Shown here piece after piece: positions 46,586-56,228 of a stretch of DNA of 64,000 nt (position 1 is its first letter; each line of letters begins with the position of its first letter). The notes beneath the pieces are model-generated. The model was not told the origin of the DNA, did not search any database, and saw only the letters and a program-made list of their open reading frames with translations. The DNA lies in assembly GCF_900109615.1 (NCBI RefSeq), contig NZ_FOIX01000003.1, positions 124,001 through 188,000 of the forward strand. The letters run 5' to 3'. The DNA comes from Kaistella antarctica (GTDB taxonomy: Bacteria > Bacteroidota > Bacteroidia > Flavobacteriales > Weeksellaceae). The position numbers and the translations under genes are program-made.

Positions 46586-47659
46586 TTAGTCTACCATAAA
46601 TTTAGAAGTTGCTTGTTCTGTATACAGAATGTAAACGCCTTTTGGTAAATTTTTAAGATTTAATTTATTTCCGTTTTTAAAAGGTTGCGAAATCGTTTGA
46701 ACTAGTTTTCCTGTGGCGTCAAAGATTTTAGCAGTTTCAATTTTATTCAAATCGTTTCCTTTCACATTTAATTCTCCGTTTTTCACAGGATTAGGATATA
46801 AAATTAAAGATGTTTTTGCAGCATTACTTTCACTGGTCGCTAGAGCTGCACCCCAAATGTCTGTAATCCACTGTGGATTGTCGATAAATGGATTACGGTT
46901 TTTTTGAAAAGCATAAGACCCGTTGTTGCGTACGATTTCCCAATCGGAAACAGGATCATTAGCGGCCCAAGTTTTCATTACTTCTAATTCCCAACTTTGC
47001 AAACCTGGGAACGGTGAACCACCTAATAAATTACCGGTATTAAATGTTGAAAGTTTACTTTCATATCTAGTTACGAAGTATAAAACCATTCTTGCAATAT
47101 CACCTTTAAACTCATCAATCGGCTCAAACACAGTACCACCGTAACCTGCAGAACCTGAAGTCCCGACTTTGCTTCCATTTAATGATATTCTTGAAGGATT
47201 GCTCACTACACCGAAAGGATAATTACTTCGGTAACCATTAACTTTTCCATCAGCTGGACGAATATGATGAATATCTGAGACCATAGGTGCATTTTGACTG
47301 AAAAGACTTTGTGGAATAATATGTTCTCTGTTATAGCAACCACCTTCATTTGCTCCAATATCGCCGCACTTTTTCACCCCGTGTTGATAATTGTAAGGAT
47401 CTGGACCGGTGGGGTCTTCCGAATACATATCGAGGACAGAGCCGTCATTCTCATAGAAACTATCGGTGTCTGTGGTTGGGTATGCATTGTAAAGTCCAGC
47501 GTACCCTTTATCCTGGGCGCCGGCCGTGATAATTTGGCTGAGTTTTGTTTTTAGAGCAGGGCCCTCGAGACCAGCGGTGCCATTATAATAATTTGCGGGG
47601 GCTTGTGCTAATGTTAGTGTAAACAAGAGTCCAAGCAATAAAGTAGTAATCTTTTTCAT
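46586..47659 (-). CDS. Secreted endonuclease I with T9SS sorting domain (second paralog)
   Basis: A 357-residue protein. Signal peptide (about 1-18), endonuclease I domain (CYNREHIIPQSLFS, HHIRPADGKVNGYRSNYPFG, NPFIDNPQWITDIWG), then directly a T9SS type A domain (LYPNPVKNGELNVKG ... KGVYILYTE). It is closest to the first paralog: the two share nearly the same N-terminus (LAQAPA.YY.GT.GL) and catalytic core. The IS lies 9 bases beyond its stop codon, between it and its likely original terminator. Confidence 0.93.
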   Translation of the reverse strand: MKKITTLLLGLLFTLTLAQAPANYYNGTAGLEGPALKTKLSQIITAGAQDKGYAGLYNAYPTTDTDSFYENDGSVLDMYSEDPTGPDPYNYQHGVKKCGDIGANEGGCYNREHIIPQSLFSQNAPMVSDIHHIRPADGKVNGYRSNYPFGVVSNPSRISLNGSKVGTSGSAGYGGTVFEPIDEFKGDIARMVLYFVTRYESKLSTFNTGNLLGGSPFPGLQSWELEVMKTWAANDPVSDWEIVRNNGSYAFQKNRNPFIDNPQWITDIWGAALATSESNAAKTSLILYPNPVKNGELNVKGNDLNKIETAKIFDATGKLVQTISQPFKNGNKLNLKNLPKGVYILYTEQATSKFMVD

Positions 47660-47681
47660 AATCTTAATTGAATTAGGTCAA

Positions 47682-47689
47682 CAAATTTA
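47682..47689 (-). promoter_or_regulatory. -7 box of the second endonuclease I gene
   Basis: Minus-strand TAAATTTG, exact consensus, 22 bases upstream of the start codon. Confidence 0.5.
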
Positions 47690-47807
47690 GATAAAATTTA
47701 TTCATTAGAAAGCGAAGCAGTATGATAAGTATTAGACTGAAAAATCATTTCTAAAGTAAAAATCAATTAAATTATCGATTGAGATAGTTTCAGAATCCAT
47801 TAAAAAA

Positions 47808-47832
47808 ACCGGCCACTTTTCTAAGCGCCGGT
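47808..47832 (-). terminator. Terminator of the third endonuclease I gene
   Basis: ACCGGC/GCCGGT 6-bp stem, followed by TTTTTTTAATGG on the minus strand. Confidence 0.75.
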
Positions 47833-47855
47833 GTGTGTAGTATGATTTGTAAAAG

Positions 47856-48962
47856 TTATTGAACAATAAATTTCACTGACTGATTTTCTGTTTTTAAAAT
47901 ATATACTCCTTTTGATTGATCTTTAAGAATGATCTTATTTAAATTTTTAAAATTCTGCTGAACCGTTTGAATTAATTTCCCGTCCATTGAATAAATTTGA
48001 ACCTGAAAAATGTCCTCCAGACCATATCCTGACAAATGCAACTGTCCATTTCTTACCGGATTCGGATAAACCGAAAGTGATTTCTTAAACGAAGATACTT
48101 CAGTTGTTGAAAGGGTAGAAGTCCAAATCATATTCACCCATTCTGGATGATCGATAAAAGGATTTCTGTTTTTCTGTCTGGCAAAAATAGCGTTATTACG
48201 GTCAATTTCTCGCTGCGAAACTGGATCTTGCGCTGCCCATTTGAGCATTAAATTAATATACCATTGCTTATAACCTCTATTTACCGTACCATCCAAGGGA
48301 TTCTGCGCATTATGATATTCTGAAAACGATTGAAGTTTATCTTCATAACGCGTGATAAAGAAAAGGTGCATTCTGGCCAAATCGCCTTTAAATTCATCGA
48401 TTGGTTCGAAAATCGTTCCGCTATATCCTGGGAAATTAGAAGGTCCCACTTTAGTTCCATTAGTAGTCGTCCAGCTTGGTGCCACGGTTTCGCCAAAAGA
48501 ATAGGTTTCTCTTCTGCTGTTCACATAGTAATCAGACGGAATCACAAAGTGCGCATCGTTAACCATAGGGGCTAATTTTCCGTAAAAGCTTTGTGGTAAA
48601 GAATGTTCGCGATTATAGCAAAACCCTTCAACATTCTGATTCGCAGACCCACACTGGTTTCCACCATTTGCGACCGATCCAATGATGTATTCATAAGCAT
48701 CTGGACCAGTTGGGTTTTCAGAATACATATCGAGCAAAGTTCCGTTGTTTTCATAGTATTTATCAACGTCTGAGGTAGCATAAGTCTTCCACAGAGCACC
48801 GTAGCCCAAATCTTTAGAACCGTTAGAAATGATCGTATTTAATTTTGTTTTCAATTCGTAACCAGATAATCCATTTGTTCCGTTATAATATCCAGCTGGA
48901 ATTTGGGCAACCAAAGAACTGGTAATGCCGACTGCAAGTAGTAAAGTAAAAAATTTTCTCAT
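47856..48962 (-). CDS. Secreted endonuclease I with T9SS sorting domain (third paralog)
   Basis: A 368-residue protein with signal peptide (MRKFFTLLLAVGITSSLVAQ), endonuclease I domain (CYNREHSLPQSFYG, HFVIPSDYYVNSRRETYSFG, NPFIDHPEWVNMIW) and T9SS type A domain (VYPNPVRNGQLHLSG ... KGVYILKTE). An upstream in-frame ATG 16 codons earlier adds a polar stretch before the signal peptide and is rejected. The core is closer to the fourth paralog than to the first two. Its leader may contain a strong hairpin (see 49009-49034). Confidence 0.93.
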   Translation of the reverse strand: MRKFFTLLLAVGITSSLVAQIPAGYYNGTNGLSGYELKTKLNTIISNGSKDLGYGALWKTYATSDVDKYYENNGTLLDMYSENPTGPDAYEYIIGSVANGGNQCGSANQNVEGFCYNREHSLPQSFYGKLAPMVNDAHFVIPSDYYVNSRRETYSFGETVAPSWTTTNGTKVGPSNFPGYSGTIFEPIDEFKGDLARMHLFFITRYEDKLQSFSEYHNAQNPLDGTVNRGYKQWYINLMLKWAAQDPVSQREIDRNNAIFARQKNRNPFIDHPEWVNMIWTSTLSTTEVSSFKKSLSVYPNPVRNGQLHLSGYGLEDIFQVQIYSMDGKLIQTVQQNFKNLNKIILKDQSKGVYILKTENQSVKFIVQ

Positions 48963-49008
48963 TGTCGAATAATAATTTTTAGTAAGATTAGAAAATAGCG
49001 TATATAGC

Positions 49009-49034
49009 AAAACTGCTGTATTACAAGCAGTTTT
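49009..49034 (-). terminator. Hairpin between the fourth and third endonuclease I genes
   Basis: AAAACTGC/GCAGTTTT, an 8-bp perfect stem. It may end the upstream gene, but it lies downstream of the third gene's -7 box, so it could also be in that gene's 5' leader. Confidence 0.5.
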
Positions 49035-49044
49035 ACGTAAATAG

Positions 49045-49052
49045 CAAAGTTA
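49045..49052 (-). promoter_or_regulatory. -7 box of the third endonuclease I gene
   Basis: Minus-strand TAACTTTG in the context GCTAACTTTGC, exact consensus, 82 bases upstream of the start. Confidence 0.5.
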
Positions 49053-49164
49053 GCCAAAATATAATTGGACGGTTTTGAGTGACTATAAAACTCAGAGCAT
49101 AACCTTTGAAAAGCTCAACAGTAGAACCTTTTCGAAGATTCAACCATTGAAAATTTAGATCGGC

Positions 49165-50283
49165 TTATTGAACGATAAATTTTAAAGTTTGAGCATTCAC
49201 TTTCAGGAAGTAAACTCCTTTCGGTAAATTCTGAAGAATAATCTTTTTAGAATTTTTAAAGTTTTGATTAACAGTTTGAACTAATTTCCCTTCCATTGAA
49301 TAAATCTGAACCGAAGTAGTCGTGTCTAACCCATAACCAGCCAGATGCAATTCCCCATTTCTAACTGGATTCGGATAAATAGAAATAGTTTTATTTAAAG
49401 CAGCGGTTTCTTGACTGGAAAGGGTAGATGTCCAAATCATATTCACCCATTCTGGATGATCGATAAAGGGATTTCTATTATTTTGCCTGTCGTAGATGGC
49501 GTTGTTTCGGTCAATTTCTTTCTGGGAAACTGGATCTTGGGCCGCCCACTTTAACATCAAGTTAATGTACCATTGCTTGTAGCCACGATCCGTAGTTCCA
49601 TCTATAGGATTAAGCTGTGGAAAAAATCGATCGAAATTCTGTAATTTGTCTTGATATCTCGTTATAAAATAAAGATGCATTCTGGCGAAATCACCTTTAA
49701 ATTCATTGATCGGTTCGAAGACCGTTCCATAATATCCAGGAAAGCTCGACGCGCCAAGTTTACTGCCATTCTTTGAAGTCCAGGTAGGAGAATCAGTTTC
49801 TCCATACGGATAATTCGACCGTTGTTGATTGACAAAAAAGTCAGCAGGAACAACGAAATGCGCATCATTGGCCATTGGAGTCGCATTACCAAAATAAGAT
49901 TTAGGCAAACTGTGCTCCCTATTATAGCATTTTCCTTCAGCAGTGAAATCCACGGTACTACACTGATTTCCGCCATTATAGGATTGCCCTAGCCTGTATT
50001 CGTAAGGATCTGGGCCGCTTGGATTTTCAGAATACATATCTAACACTGATCCGTTATTCTCGTAATATTTATCAACATCAGAGGTGAAGTAAGTTTGCCA
50101 TAATCCACCTGAGCCACTTCCATAGCCCAAATCCAAAGCACCAGCACTGATGATTCCGTAGAGTTCAGATTTTAGTTCGTAGCCACTTAAACCCGCAGCA
50201 CTGTCATAGTATCCCGCAGGAATTTGAGCGAAAGAAGAGGTTGAAATTGTAAGGGAAATAAATAAAGTAAATATTTTTTTCAT
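49165..50283 (-). CDS. Secreted endonuclease I with T9SS sorting domain (fourth paralog)
   Basis: A 372-residue protein. Signal peptide (about 1-19, ending SSFAQ), endonuclease I domain (CYNREHSLPKSYFG, HFVVPADFFVNQQRSNYPYG, NPFIDHPEWVNMIW) and T9SS type A domain (IYPNPVRNGELHLAG ... KGVYFLKV). It is highly similar to the third paralog over its whole length, including the sorting domain. First transcribed member of the array, but each gene has its own promoter box, so they are probably independent units. Confidence 0.93.
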   Translation of the reverse strand: MKKIFTLFISLTISTSSFAQIPAGYYDSAAGLSGYELKSELYGIISAGALDLGYGSGSGGLWQTYFTSDVDKYYENNGSVLDMYSENPSGPDPYEYRLGQSYNGGNQCSTVDFTAEGKCYNREHSLPKSYFGNATPMANDAHFVVPADFFVNQQRSNYPYGETDSPTWTSKNGSKLGASSFPGYYGTVFEPINEFKGDFARMHLYFITRYQDKLQNFDRFFPQLNPIDGTTDRGYKQWYINLMLKWAAQDPVSQKEIDRNNAIYDRQNNRNPFIDHPEWVNMIWTSTLSSQETAALNKTISIYPNPVRNGELHLAGYGLDTTTSVQIYSMEGKLVQTVNQNFKNSKKIILQNLPKGVYFLKVNAQTLKFIVQ

Positions 50284-52165: not shown

Positions 52166-52255
52166 TCTAAAATGAAAACCATTTATTAACTCAAAAATTG
52201 ATCATATCTAAAGTTTTTATATTTCGATTTTTCATTCTACCAAATAAATTTTAAT

Positions 52256-52311
52256 ATTACTCATTACTCATTACTCATTACTCATTACTCATCACTCATC
52301 ATCCATCAATC
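52256..52311 (+). repeat. Heptad array (ATTACTC) abutting the methylmalonyl-CoA epimerase start codon
   Basis: Five perfect ATTACTC units (52256-52290) then ATCACTC, ATCATCC, ATCAATC, ending exactly at the ATG. On the minus strand the unit reads GAGTAAT. Confidence 0.9.
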
Positions 52312-53078: not shown

Positions 53079-53152
53079 GGCCCTATAACTCAGCTGGTTA
53101 GAGTAGCTGACTCATAATCAGCAAGTCCCTGGTTCGAGCCCAGGTGGGGCCA
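53079..53152 (+). tRNA. tRNA with CAU anticodon, probably tRNA-Ile2 (or elongator tRNA-Met)
   Basis: A full cloverleaf of 74 nt: acceptor stem GGCCCTA/TGGGGCC, D arm, anticodon stem GCTGA/TCAGC with loop CTCATAA (anticodon CAT at 53113-53115), and T arm CCTGG-TTCGAGC-CCAGG. The 3' CCA is not encoded. The G1-C72 pair excludes initiator tRNA. The G/C-rich acceptor with C4-G69 and C5-G68 is like E. coli ileX, whose CAU anticodon is changed to lysidine by TilS to read AUA; elongator Met cannot be excluded by sequence reading alone. Confidence 0.92.
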
Positions 53153-53167
53153 CAAGATTGGAACAGA

Positions 53168-53199
53168 AGCACTTACCGTGAGGTAGGTGTTTTTTTTTT
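53168..53199 (+). terminator. Terminator of the tRNA gene
   Basis: CACTTACC (53170-53177) and GGTAGGTG (53182-53189) form an 8-bp stem with one G-T pair and a GTGA loop, followed by ten Ts. Confidence 0.85.
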
Positions 53200-53346: not shown

Positions 53347-54459
53347 ATGAAAGAAACTTTTATCAACATCAGTAAAATAATTGAAAGAGATAGTAAATCG
53401 ACTACGTATAAATTTGCTTTATTAAGAGGAACTATAGACATAATTCAAGAAAATTCTCCTTTCATTAAAGTCAAGACGGAAACGGTAGAAATTCCATTAG
53501 GTTTACTAATTATAAAATGGATGATCTACTATTATCCACTTTTGGATAGTTCTATTTTACTTCCTCAAATAAATGGTAAGAATTCAAAACTCGCTTTTCA
53601 AGATAAATTTCTTCCGATAATAAATTATTACAACAGATATGGTGGTTTATCTGCCTTTTATAATGATCTTAGAGTTAAAGGTATTAGTAAAGAAGTTAAT
53701 TCCGAATTTTATGAATTAGTCAAAGAATTGAGAAGGAATATCGTGATAAATCCAATGAAGTTCATTGGGAATTCGATTAATAAAAGTTATTATTCCATAT
53801 ACAATTACCAAACAAACTCAACATTAAGAAACACAGAAGTTCAGAATTCTAATTGGCTTGTTAAAGGTTGCGGCACTTTTTCAATTCCTACTAAATATTT
53901 TGAAGCATTTAAAATTCTTGGAAGTTTTATTAGTGGATCGGATAATGTATTATTTAAATGGGCTGAATTTTCGGTGAATGCAAGTGGTAAAACATTAAGT
54001 TCTGAAAAAATAATATCAGAAATTCTTAAAAGTCCAATTACAGAAAGAGAAATTTCTAGTTCTAAACAATTATATAAGTCCATTTTAAGAGAATCAGGAG
54101 TTGTAGCGTGCGTTTGGACAGGAATTAAAATTAGTAATTACGATATTGACCATGTTATTCCATTTTCAATTTGGAAAAACAATGACCTTTGGAATTTACT
54201 GCCAGCAAAATCAACAATCAATAATAAGAAAAGAGACAAAATTCCATCATCTGAATTAATTACAAAACAGAAAGAGGTAATTATTCATTATTGGGAAATT
54301 ATACATAATGCAGAAGAACAAAGATTTTTGGAGGAAATTCAAATTACACTGTTAGGGAATAGTCTTACCAGTAATTGGCAAAATAATGCATTTAACCAAC
54401 TTTTGAGAACATCAAAATATTTTATTGAAACAAGAGGTTATGAGCCATGGAATATATAA
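53347..54459 (+). CDS. HNH-type endonuclease protein
   Basis: A 370-residue protein. The N-terminal 230 residues are a helical region of unknown function starting with STTYKFALLRGTIDIIQE. The C-terminal part holds an HNH/HNN-like nuclease motif: CVWTGIKISNYDIDHVIPFS with H269, then DLWNLLPA (N283) and TINNKKRDKIP. The cysteine pairs of zinc-type HNH enzymes are missing. The gene is visibly richer in A and T than its neighbours, and the start lies 147 bases after the tRNA terminator. It overlaps the start of the methyltransferase-HIT gene by 13 bases in another frame, which implies coordinated expression. Restriction- or defence-like function is inference; no known R-M family was recognised. 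Confidence 0.82.
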   Translation: MKETFINISKIIERDSKSTTYKFALLRGTIDIIQENSPFIKVKTETVEIPLGLLIIKWMIYYYPLLDSSILLPQINGKNSKLAFQDKFLPIINYYNRYGGLSAFYNDLRVKGISKEVNSEFYELVKELRRNIVINPMKFIGNSINKSYYSIYNYQTNSTLRNTEVQNSNWLVKGCGTFSIPTKYFEAFKILGSFISGSDNVLFKWAEFSVNASGKTLSSEKIISEILKSPITEREISSSKQLYKSILRESGVVACVWTGIKISNYDIDHVIPFSIWKNNDLWNLLPAKSTINNKKRDKIPSSELITKQKEVIIHYWEIIHNAEEQRFLEEIQITLLGNSLTSNWQNNAFNQLLRTSKYFIETRGYEPWNI

Positions 54460-55313
54460 AACGTAATTTAAATAGTCACCTAACCGCAATTGAAAGAACA
54501 TCACTTTCGTACCCTGCTCGCATTCTCCAAAAACAAGACAAATTACTGGGAAAAATTCTTGACTTCGGATGTGGTATTGGTAAAGATGTAGAACTTTTAA
54601 AAGAGAAAGATTTTGATATTATTGGTTACGATCCTTTTTATTTTCCAAATTTCCCGACCGAAAAATTTGACACCATTTTATGTTTTTATGTTCTAAATGT
54701 TCTGCTTCCAGAAGAACAAGCCGAAGTTTTAATGAATGTTTCAAGTTTACTTAAACCAAATGGAAAGGCGTATTACTCGGTCAGAAGAGATATTCAATAT
54801 GAAGGTTTTAGAGTTCATAAAATTCATAAGAAAGAAACATTTCAATGTATTATTAAACTTCCATATTTCACAATATTTAAGAATGAGAATTGTGAAATCT
54901 ACGAATATGAATCCTACACCACTTTAAATAAAGGAAATACAGATTTAAGTCCATTTTTGATAGGAGAGGAAACCAGAGAATTACTCGTTGAAACTGCGAC
55001 TGTTTTTTCTTTCTATGATAAATTCCCAGTTTCAAAGGGACATGCTTTGATTGTTCCGAAAAGACTGGTTTCCAATTATTTCGACTTAACGTTTAAGGAG
55101 CAAACTGCTTGTTGGATTGTTGTCAATAAGGTTAAGAAAATTCTACAAGAAAAATATGATTCTACGGGTTTTAATATTGGAATAAATATAAATGAAGATG
55201 CGGGACAAACAATTTGGCATTCTCATATTCATGTAATTCCGAGGTATAAAGGCGATGTTGAAAATCCACGAGGTGGAATTAGAGGGGTTATTCCTCATAA
55301 TAAAGAATATTAA
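54447..55313 (+). CDS. Methyltransferase-HIT domain fusion protein
   Basis: A 288-residue two-domain protein. Residues 1-160: class I SAM-dependent methyltransferase with motif I ILDFGCGIGKDVELL (D39-G45), GYDPF and a family-typical FDTILCFYVLNVLLP/LLKPNGKAYYSVRRD block. Residues 170-288: HIT domain with FYDKFPVSKGHALIVPKR and the histidine triad H258, H260, H262 in WHSHIHVIPRYKGD. HIT enzymes hydrolyse nucleotide conjugates, for example AMP-lysine or dinucleotides. The fusion suggests a nucleotide-linked modification step. Its ATG lies inside the HNH gene (13-base overlap), so the two form an operon. The substrate is unknown. Confidence 0.88.
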   Translation: MEYIKRNLNSHLTAIERTSLSYPARILQKQDKLLGKILDFGCGIGKDVELLKEKDFDIIGYDPFYFPNFPTEKFDTILCFYVLNVLLPEEQAEVLMNVSSLLKPNGKAYYSVRRDIQYEGFRVHKIHKKETFQCIIKLPYFTIFKNENCEIYEYESYTTLNKGNTDLSPFLIGEETRELLVETATVFSFYDKFPVSKGHALIVPKRLVSNYFDLTFKEQTACWIVVNKVKKILQEKYDSTGFNIGININEDAGQTIWHSHIHVIPRYKGDVENPRGGIRGVIPHNKEY

Positions 55314-55382: not shown

Positions 55383-56228
55383 ATGAAGAAATATCCAACC
55401 ATGATCGATAAAAACTTCTATCTCGAAAACCTCTCAGCCTTTGATATTCTCATTCAGGATGAAGATCGCAAACAAGCTGAGGAAGTTATTTTTAGAGTAT
55501 ACAGCATTTTGCAACGCGATAAAATTTGGCTTCGAGACATCGCAACGGAGGAAGAAATCTTTGAAGAAGATGCTGAGCTTTTGGAAGAAGTAGAAGAGGA
55601 ACTAAAAGAACTCGATGAAAAATATAATTTCCGTTTTGATGATTTTTACAAATTAGTTCAGCAAGAGATGAAGAAAATTCAGTCAACTTCAAATCTTAAT
55701 AATTCGGAAGAGGATGAATTCGATTCAGGAGATGAAACTTTTGAAGAGAAAGACGAAGATGAATTTGACGAAATCAATGAAGATTTTGAAATACAAGATG
55801 AAAAAGATTTAGAAGAAGATGAAGACGATGAAGAGAATACCGACACTTTAAGCCATTTATCAGATGAAGAAATAGATCTCGTACCCGAATATATTCTGGC
55901 AAGCGCAAAAACAAGATTTAATTATCCTGAGTTTTTAAAATCATTTCCAATTGCTGATGAAGAATTGGTAGAGGAACAGTTTCTTTTTCCCATCATTGTC
56001 GGAAAAGCATTTGGAGAAACCGATATTGAAATCGCGGGAAAAATTCATTCAAATTTCGTGATGAGTGGTTATCAAATTGAAATGAACGACCTCATCACTA
56101 CGATTGAACAGAAAGGAAAAGAACTGGGATTGGAGATTCTAGTCTTTAAAGTTGCCTCTGATTCTTTACATCAAGGGGCGCATCCAACTGCCGTGGTTGA
56201 ACAGATTTCACAATTATTGAAAGGATAA
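55383..56228 (+). CDS. Highly acidic protein of unknown function
   Basis: A 281-residue protein without membrane segments. The N-terminal part (about 10-100) is helical (EDRKQAEEVIFRVYSILQRDKI), the centre (about 100-165) is an almost uninterrupted Asp/Glu stretch with no hydrophobic core, and the C-terminal part (about 170-281) is a compact mixed fold (IVGKAFGETDIEIAGKIHSNF; HPTAVVEQISQLLKG). I do not recognise a family. An in-frame ATG at codon 7 is a possible alternative start, but the promoter box fits either. Confidence 0.7.
   Translation: MKKYPTMIDKNFYLENLSAFDILIQDEDRKQAEEVIFRVYSILQRDKIWLRDIATEEEIFEEDAELLEEVEEELKELDEKYNFRFDDFYKLVQQEMKKIQSTSNLNNSEEDEFDSGDETFEEKDEDEFDEINEDFEIQDEKDLEEDEDDEENTDTLSHLSDEEIDLVPEYILASAKTRFNYPEFLKSFPIADEELVEEQFLFPIIVGKAFGETDIEIAGKIHSNFVMSGYQIEMNDLITTIEQKGKELGLEILVFKVASDSLHQGAHPTAVVEQISQLLKG

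Follow-up and report, generated by a model that had tools for sequence, protein, structure and literature searches.

A 64,000-nucleotide stretch of the Kaistella antarctica genome (contig NZ_FOIX01000003.1, positions 124,001 to 188,000 of the forward strand; hereafter the window) carries two overlapping genes, the first encoding an HNH endonuclease-type protein and the second a class I methyltransferase fused to a HIT domain. With a probability of roughly 55%, this pair is a mobile restriction-type cassette in which an exchangeable nuclease is combined with a common enzyme partner. The pairing of the two genes is real and goes beyond chance, and within it the fusion stays the same while one nuclease can take the place of another. 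Judged from sequence comparisons, the two genes probably form a mobile unit for restricting DNA, with an anti-phage role, in which the exchangeable HNH protein would cut foreign DNA and the near-constant methyltransferase-HIT enzyme would probably service whichever nuclease is supplied.

Recurrence of the pair and exchange of its nuclease

The locus set comprises the best 80 of at least 183 relatives from a scan of genome contigs. Cyanobacteria account for 24 of them; the other 56 are non-cyanobacterial and, according to the record titles, come from Bacteroidota, Ignavibacteriota and similar groups. An HNH-family profile matches at all 56 non-cyanobacterial loci, each time in the open reading frame (ORF) directly upstream of the fusion, and in none of 20 control regions. 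The controls, stretches of 13 kb picked at random from contigs that carry a related gene, include one shifted 100 kb off its locus (G247), two from a single G358 contig, and one (G147) that overlaps a stretch around a stand-alone HIT gene by about 2 kb; they also carried defence-type genes, e.g., a type IIG enzyme and one C5 methylase. With starts chosen mechanically, the HNH and fusion genes overlap at 49 of the 56 loci, by exactly 13 bases in 24, and are never separated by a gap of more than 9 bases. The less selected phylum sample of 395 genomes holds a full-length or nearly full-length fusion in 17, and an HNH-type gene adjoins every one of them. Fifteen of these partners belong to the profiled HNH family, one (G338) is an HNH_2 protein, and one (G252) is an HNH_4 protein fused to a second methyltransferase; the G252 methyltransferase-HIT fusion has an internal stop and reaches only residue 268, and adjacency in G081 and G110 was read from coordinates only. 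Both genes thus co-occur elsewhere, and the pair is patchy and found in varied places; the outcomes that the preliminary description of this DNA named as refuting its idea (a single-copy, syntenic and universal pair, or homologs never found together elsewhere) are not borne out. Counted in reverse, 34 places with an HNH match in the sample reduce to 32 genes, since a 1062-residue, Cas9-looking frame in G143 was excluded and two halves in G081 look like one gene. Twenty-one of the 32 adjoin a fusion or HIT gene; the G252 gene, which carries a methyltransferase of its own, is counted here. In five others the only partner is a methyltransferase joined to the N-terminus (G448 by Pfam; G303, G335, G432, and G357 by sequence), and one (G424) runs off its contig end.

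That the two genes serve ordinary chromosomal metabolism or are chance neighbours is highly improbable. Cyanobacteria do keep the fusion without an HNH-family profile match (0/24, five of these with less than 1,500 bases of upstream sequence), but the contrast between 56/56 loci and 0/20 controls, the presence in 4 of 36 genus genomes, and the mobile contexts described below all speak against it, and for the non-cyanobacterial loci seen this explanation is already contradicted.

Exchange of the nuclease is most directly visible in two colinear loci downstream of ATP-synthase genes, L045 (Algoriphagus limi) and L161 (G168). Their HNH genes belong to classes T1 and T2, respectively; T1, T2, and T3 are labels coined in this analysis, and the window HNH protein is a T1 member. 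DNA identity is 96% as far as 39 bases upstream of the HNH start and resumes, at 92%, 17 bases into the fusion gene. The encoded fusions share 95% identity and the HNH proteins 28% over 159 residues; the HNH gene is the sole difference. A comparable situation is found between the window and G024, a genome of the same genus with an HNH protein of class T2: the fusions are 87% identical and the HNH proteins 29% over 86 residues, DNA similarity starts 23 bases inside the fusion gene, and the following gene is common to both. When mapped onto a quickly built tree of 96 fusion proteins, in which 35 of the 93 inner branches have weak support, the T1/T2 label requires at least 11 changes, six of which are forced by well-supported branches alone. 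Because the HNH gene alone differs beside near-identical fusions, the latter can be regarded as the constant component.

The HIT domain is an element common to more of these loci than the fusion as a whole, and HNH-HIT pairs without a methyltransferase occur. The phylum sample gave 11 HIT-only matches, ten of which were fetched (all except G438); in seven, the stand-alone HIT gene follows an HNH-type gene, which is of the HNH_2 kind in G428 and G377, of class T1 in G323, and of class T3 in G000, G129, G187, and G061. HNH_2 proteins constitute a fourth type of partner. Among six plasmid records with a HIT match, an HNH-family gene confirmed by profile adjoins HIT on three: Polaromonas pPNAP03, Aromatoleum plasmid 2, and Persicobacter pPP10. 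On the first two, which are betaproteobacterial, the order is HIT then HNH, and the Aromatoleum plasmid is typed as conjugative. No annotated HNH gene was seen on the two plasmids read of the remaining three (H2 excluded). A related HNH protein is also fused to a different class I methyltransferase on Pseudoalteromonas and Roseomonas plasmids (an Azospirillum plasmid is listed only) and in six phylum-sample genomes, two assigned by Pfam and the rest by N-terminal sequence. These fusions of about 550-590 residues (L149-L153 and L113 in the phylum sample; L269 and L270 on plasmids) represent a second route of coupling. A NUDIX gene that seemed to replace HIT beside the G280 HNH gene (L147, Pfam) may belong to the following large gene and was not used.

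HNH homing enzymes are common, and the HNH gene could be a free-standing homing endonuclease that uses the fusion gene as its landing site, the swap then being a homing event. Exactly the HNH gene is replaced between L045 and L161, and the cyanobacterial fusions could represent empty targets. However, homing should leave empty targets, and no fusion lacks an HNH gene among the 56 non-cyanobacterial loci; the HNH genes also pair with stand-alone HIT genes and adjoin restriction-modification (R-M) genes, and the order is reversed on the two betaproteobacterial plasmids. Homing is therefore a very unlikely explanation.

Relatives of the fusion also occur in viruses. The phage collection contained two matching records of one phage, in the HIT part only. 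Viral contigs gave 46 loci; in ten of the 12 read, HIT or the methyltransferase is a separate gene, and none of these 12 has an HNH partner recognisable by motif (at L237 and L268, the matched gene was not shown by the ORF caller). Several of the viral contigs with stand-alone relatives are very long; the relatives are of HIT (L224, L226, L231) or of the methyltransferase (L242, L248, L249, L251, L252, L256, L260), and most of the latter keep the TAI and RRD motifs. In Streptomyces phage phiSASD1 (gp3-gp4, L271), the HIT gene directly follows a gene annotated as AANH-like, for which RefSeq gives PAPS reductase; this may hint that HIT acts on adenylated intermediates.

The locus, its mobility and its neighbours

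Several statements of the preliminary description on the layout of the locus are borne out (Table 1): the overlap of the two ORFs, the fusion of a class I methyltransferase (Pfam) to a HIT domain with an intact triad, and the position downstream of a tRNA gene, with 193 bases between tRNA and HNH start. So is the AT-richness of the pair, since the G+C contents of the HNH gene (about 28%) and the fusion gene (about 32%) are the two lowest among the 52 mechanically called window ORFs of at least 150 residues (mean 37.6%, standard deviation 2.8). The claim that the pair is bounded by terminators holds on the upstream side, where a hairpin follows the tRNA, and fails downstream, where no terminator-like hairpin was found up to 55500; between 53000 and 55500, two terminator-like sites compare with a mean of 0.8 in shuffled sequence.

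Table 1. Coordinates of the features at the pair (window positions) and of the insert on contig C6 of the same genome
Feature	Position	Strand	Basis or remark
tRNA gene, anticodon CAU (called tRNA-Met)	53079..53153	+	ARAGORN, single tRNA; upstream edge of variable-cargo interval in several genus genomes
Terminator-like hairpin 3' of tRNA	53165..53194	+	hairpin scan
HNH_4 endonuclease-type gene, class T1, 370 aa	53347..54459	+	ORF, Pfam
HNH core, residues 255-300 (C255, D268-H269, N283, N292, K295)	54109..54246	+	
Overlap of HNH and fusion genes, 13 bases	54447..54459	+	
Methyltransferase-HIT fusion gene, 288 aa	54447..55313	+	ORF, Pfam
Class I methyltransferase domain, about residues 1-157	54447..54917	+	
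HIT domain, about residues 168-288	54948..55310	+	Fhit/HIT-hydrolase-like
Histidine triad, H258-x-H260-x-H262	55218..55232	+	
Acidic-protein gene, downstream edge of interval	55383..56228	+	held by 16/36 genus genomes
Insert of about 21 kb splitting a comM-type gene	G000:C6:262133-283951 (L107, G000:C6:258500-272500)		serine recombinase at left end, HNH-HIT pair next

Variable location and mobility of the pair, which the preliminary description had named as support for its idea, are evident at several levels. The full fusion has a patchy distribution in the genus (4 of 36 genomes) and sits at differing sites. From the relatives, nine stretches corresponding to the window site were extracted, and that of G024 was compared. 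The interval between the tRNA and the acidic-protein gene holds other cargo there: a TIR protein and one that we take to be patatin-like from its motif in G006, a PLD-helicase DUF3427 protein in G009 with a similar-sized ORF in G010, and a partial tRNA copy adjoining an integrase in G033. A tRNA copy is missing from four of the nine stretches, namely G007, G006, G017, and G027; in the first two the tRNA lies just beyond the stretch and in the last two elsewhere in the genome, and synteny of the site is therefore not universal. No tRNA attachment repeat was found beside the pair in the window. The source genome harbors a second pair on contig C6, a class T3 HNH gene and a HIT gene, which directly follows a serine recombinase gene. 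The latter comes after a truncated comM-type gene, whose missing part lies about 21 kb downstream, and the insert fits an integrated element with the HNH-HIT pair at one end.

At 15 of the 56 loci, the pair has at least one of six recurrent neighbour families: Wadjet (4), DUF4007 (3), ResIII-type helicase (4), RecF/SMC-like ATPase (4), DUF1016 (4), and DUF5131 (3). In G005, it lies inside an island of DUF4007, helicase, and ATPase genes. Of 17 neighbour seeds compared with the controls, only the C5-methylase seeds match a control region (1/20). Among PADLOC models, 224 families are matched by 106 nearest neighbours, against 36 families for an equal number of control proteins taken from a pool of 189; these tallies are inflated by many models per gene and serve as a pointer only; the PbeA model matches 3 of the 106 neighbours. 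R-M genes also occur as neighbours. The gene order in L157 is HNH, fusion, C5 methylase, HATPase/Ymh-like, and Vsr-like, and that in L108 is HNH_2, HIT, Vsr, C5 methylase, and HATPase/Ymh. Because the C5 methylases of these two loci are 82% identical and their HNH modules differ, different HNH and HIT modules occupy the nuclease place in one R-M framework. A C5 methylase and Vsr adjoin at L158, and a C5 methylase adjoins at L104; no relatives of these C5 methylases are found in the 56 loci.

Elsewhere in the window (46586-50283, - strand), three related genes that share a YNREH motif lie in a row; they are apparently tandem copies and presumably secreted endonuclease I-like. A short tandem repeat of approximately ATTACTC lies at 52255-52299, just upstream of a glyoxalase-family gene.

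Predicted activities and possible roles

The C-terminal part of the window HNH protein is predicted to be a Cas9-like DNA-cutting HNH domain. The protein matches Pfam HNH_4 (PF13395) with 37.3 bits, above the cut-off of 22; D268-H269 and N292 fall in register with the catalytic DH and N residues of the HNH domain in Cas9, and H269, P272, W282, N283, and K295 are invariant across 15 diverse HNH-family rows. Cas9 models themselves match below their cut-offs and over the HNH part only (TIGR01865, 25.7 bits, cut-off 100; NF049971, 26.9 bits, cut-off 375). Classes T1, T2, and T3 can be aligned mainly over this core and an N-terminal (T/S)YK motif, the window protein carrying TYKFALLR at residues 20-27. 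For the N-terminal part, Foldseek returned 42 matches, none at E ≤ 0.001, and VIA-align gave only weak winged-helix rows. In fold, the two parts of the fusion resemble small-molecule methyltransferases and Fhit-like HIT proteins, and the N-terminal part of the HNH protein is only weakly winged-helix-like.

The fusion matches Pfam HIT with 73.4 bits (cut-off 21.5) and Methyltransf_23 with 50 bits (cut-off 27). Within Pfam, the methyltransferase part matches general class I families and no DNA-methylase family, and its nearest folds are those of small-molecule methyltransferases. The HIT domain is closest, in both sequence and fold, to NitFhit, HIT-family proteins, and Ap4A phosphorylase, and is predicted to hydrolyse a nucleotide conjugate; the triad reads HHH in 70 of 73 HNH-linked fusions. 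At E ≤ 0.001, 2949 database proteins match the fusion (the best 120 are listed), some perhaps over one part only. The cyanobacterial fusions form one clade (L053, L059, L064-L069, L072, L073, L079-L082, L084, L085, L089, L093, L094, L097-L100, L102). Because the central histidine of the triad is absent in all 24, their HIT part may only bind nucleotides. A reading in which HIT decays once the HNH gene is lost was discarded, as L155 and L114 spoil it; because L114, an HNH-linked fusion that is sister to the cyanobacterial clade in the tree, shows the same loss, the cyanobacterial loss is not independent evidence.

An HNH gene beside a methyltransferase gene is a standard R-M layout, and the methyltransferase domain might methylate host DNA at the HNH cut site. 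In keeping with this, related HNH proteins are fused to different class I methyltransferases on proteobacterial plasmids and in the six phylum-sample genomes, and the methyltransferase part resembles TIGR04096 (dnd_rel_methyl), a phosphorothioation-associated putative methyltransferase, with 62.4 bits over residues 9-96 (cut-off 150). As a guide to function, TIGR04096 was rejected: no match exceeds the cut-off in the 395 phylum-sample genomes, and a genome search at E ≤ 1e-15 gave only five of the fusions. Classical R-M is nevertheless quite unlikely and was ruled out as first choice because the HNH gene is swapped beside an almost unchanged fusion and a DNA-methylase family is missing; furthermore, HNH-HIT pairs exist without any methyltransferase, and a separate C5 methylase is already present in L157 and L158. 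The same findings (a different HNH class beside a 95% identical fusion, the HNH-HIT pairs, and the lack of a DNA-methylase family) speak against the earlier proposal that the fused enzyme marks a target read by the HNH protein, so that the preliminary idea as a whole is partly supported. Since exchange of the nuclease leaves the fusion almost untouched, the fusion appears unlikely to be a sequence-matched protector of host DNA; its target would rather be shared by all these nucleases, for instance cutting products or a common ligand.

For the restriction-type cassette, the following course of events can be envisaged. The variable, weakly winged-helix-like N-terminal part of the HNH protein would sense the target, which would then be nicked or cut by the Cas9-like HNH domain. 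The HIT domain would hydrolyse a nucleotidyl conjugate arising from nuclease action, and the methyltransferase, a dispensable part, would act on the same nucleotide-linked product. Our best single guess for the conjugate is the adenylyl group left by DNA ligase on nuclease-made ends, removal of which would either prevent resealing of cut invader DNA or clean host ends; taken by itself, ligase-adenylate on such ends is a doubtful candidate for the HIT substrate.

The main rival to the cassette is control by a nucleotide signal: the HNH protein would be gated by a ligand, either a dinucleotide or a nucleotide conjugate, and the HIT domain, by making or destroying it, would act as an off-switch or reset. 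This rival draws on the proximity of the HIT domain to NitFhit, HIT-family proteins, and Ap4A phosphorylase, and on a precedent in defence, the HIT gene thsC of Thoeris systems (PMC8565338), the PADLOC model of which the window HIT domain matches weakly (32.6 bits). No signal synthase was recognised in the pair or its recurrent neighbours, although no search was aimed at synthases by name, and signal control, while the strongest competitor, is unlikely.

Several observations weigh against the restriction-type cassette. Although defence-type company of the pair is supported, forty-one of the 56 loci have none of the six recurrent neighbour families. Three of the ten stand-alone HIT genes (G401, G147, G436) have no HNH gene beside them. 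Conversely, five of the 32 HNH genes (G038, G306, G280, and a pair of genes in G137, one of them broken) lack a recognised HIT or methyltransferase neighbour; the partner is therefore not obligatory. The triad is altered in three HNH-linked fusions (L026, L114, L155), and in L114, the nearest relative of the HNH-less cyanobacterial clade, the central histidine is gone while the HNH gene is still present; losing HIT catalysis and losing the HNH gene are thus not strictly coupled. The predicted model of the window HNH protein is of moderate quality, with a predicted local distance difference test (pLDDT) score of 72. As for the ligase-adenylate substrate, no aprataxin is found among the 45 listed sequence matches of the HIT domain, which are of the Fhit/Ap4A type instead.

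Relation to known systems

Within the literature searched, which left out most subscription papers and bioRxiv and so does not prove absence, neither an HNH-HIT nor an HNH-methyltransferase-HIT unit is described. The NCBI entry "bifunctional class I SAM-dependent methyltransferase/HIT family protein" covers the same fusion, but its name gives no function and no HNH partner. Neither gene has a strong full-length PADLOC match, the best being 28 bits for the Cas9 HNH part and 32.6 bits for the ThsC HIT part, and no TIR or SIR2 match was obtained for either gene with Pfam and PADLOC models. With Cas9, the window HNH core shares the register of DH and N; by contrast, the protein has 370 residues, and Cas9 models cover nothing beyond its HNH part. 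Thoeris type II systems, which provide the closest published relative encountered, are similar in that a HIT gene, thsC, recurs in a defence system and occurs as an additional gene in 2.4% of Thoeris systems (PADLOC; PMC8565338). In contrast, the window HIT domain is partnered by an HNH nuclease, and its match to ThsC is confined to residues 197-264.

Phosphorothioation-linked systems (Dnd, PbeABCD/CxC) resemble the pair in that DUF4007, helicase, and ABC-type ATPase genes lie next to it at some loci and its methyltransferase is weakly TIGR04096-like. The G005 island resembles the PbeABCD/CxC systems treated in PMC10853773, which also describes HNH nucleases with an N-terminal winged helix (wHTH-SAD-HNH); the terms "HIT domain" and "HIT family" do not occur in its main text. 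Unlike in those systems, the genes directly adjoining the window pair include no recognisable Dnd gene. Type II R-M systems with HNH, C5 methylase, and Vsr genes share an HNH protein as the predicted cutter, and the modules adjoin such genes in L157, L158, L104, and L108. They differ in that neither window gene encodes a DNA methylase of any known family, the HIT enzyme is the constant partner, and the nuclease is swapped while the partner barely changes.

In classical restriction, the nuclease and the protecting methylase must match. A nuclease class that changes beside a partner that barely does would suggest self-protection independent of sequence, or a partner needed for cutting itself. 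The pair would be a variant of restriction-type systems outside any named one, a unit seemingly not yet described. More tentatively, and at less than even odds, it could represent a new type of restriction with a universal Fhit-like HIT partner, alone or fused to a methyltransferase, in which specificity changes by nuclease swap alone and no matched methylase is required. HIT hydrolases are widespread, and their role in bacteria is poorly known; their tight operon link to DNA nucleases offers a direct handle on that role, and with the fusion present in 17 of 395 phylum-sample genomes, the pair is frequent enough to serve as a useful candidate for defence.

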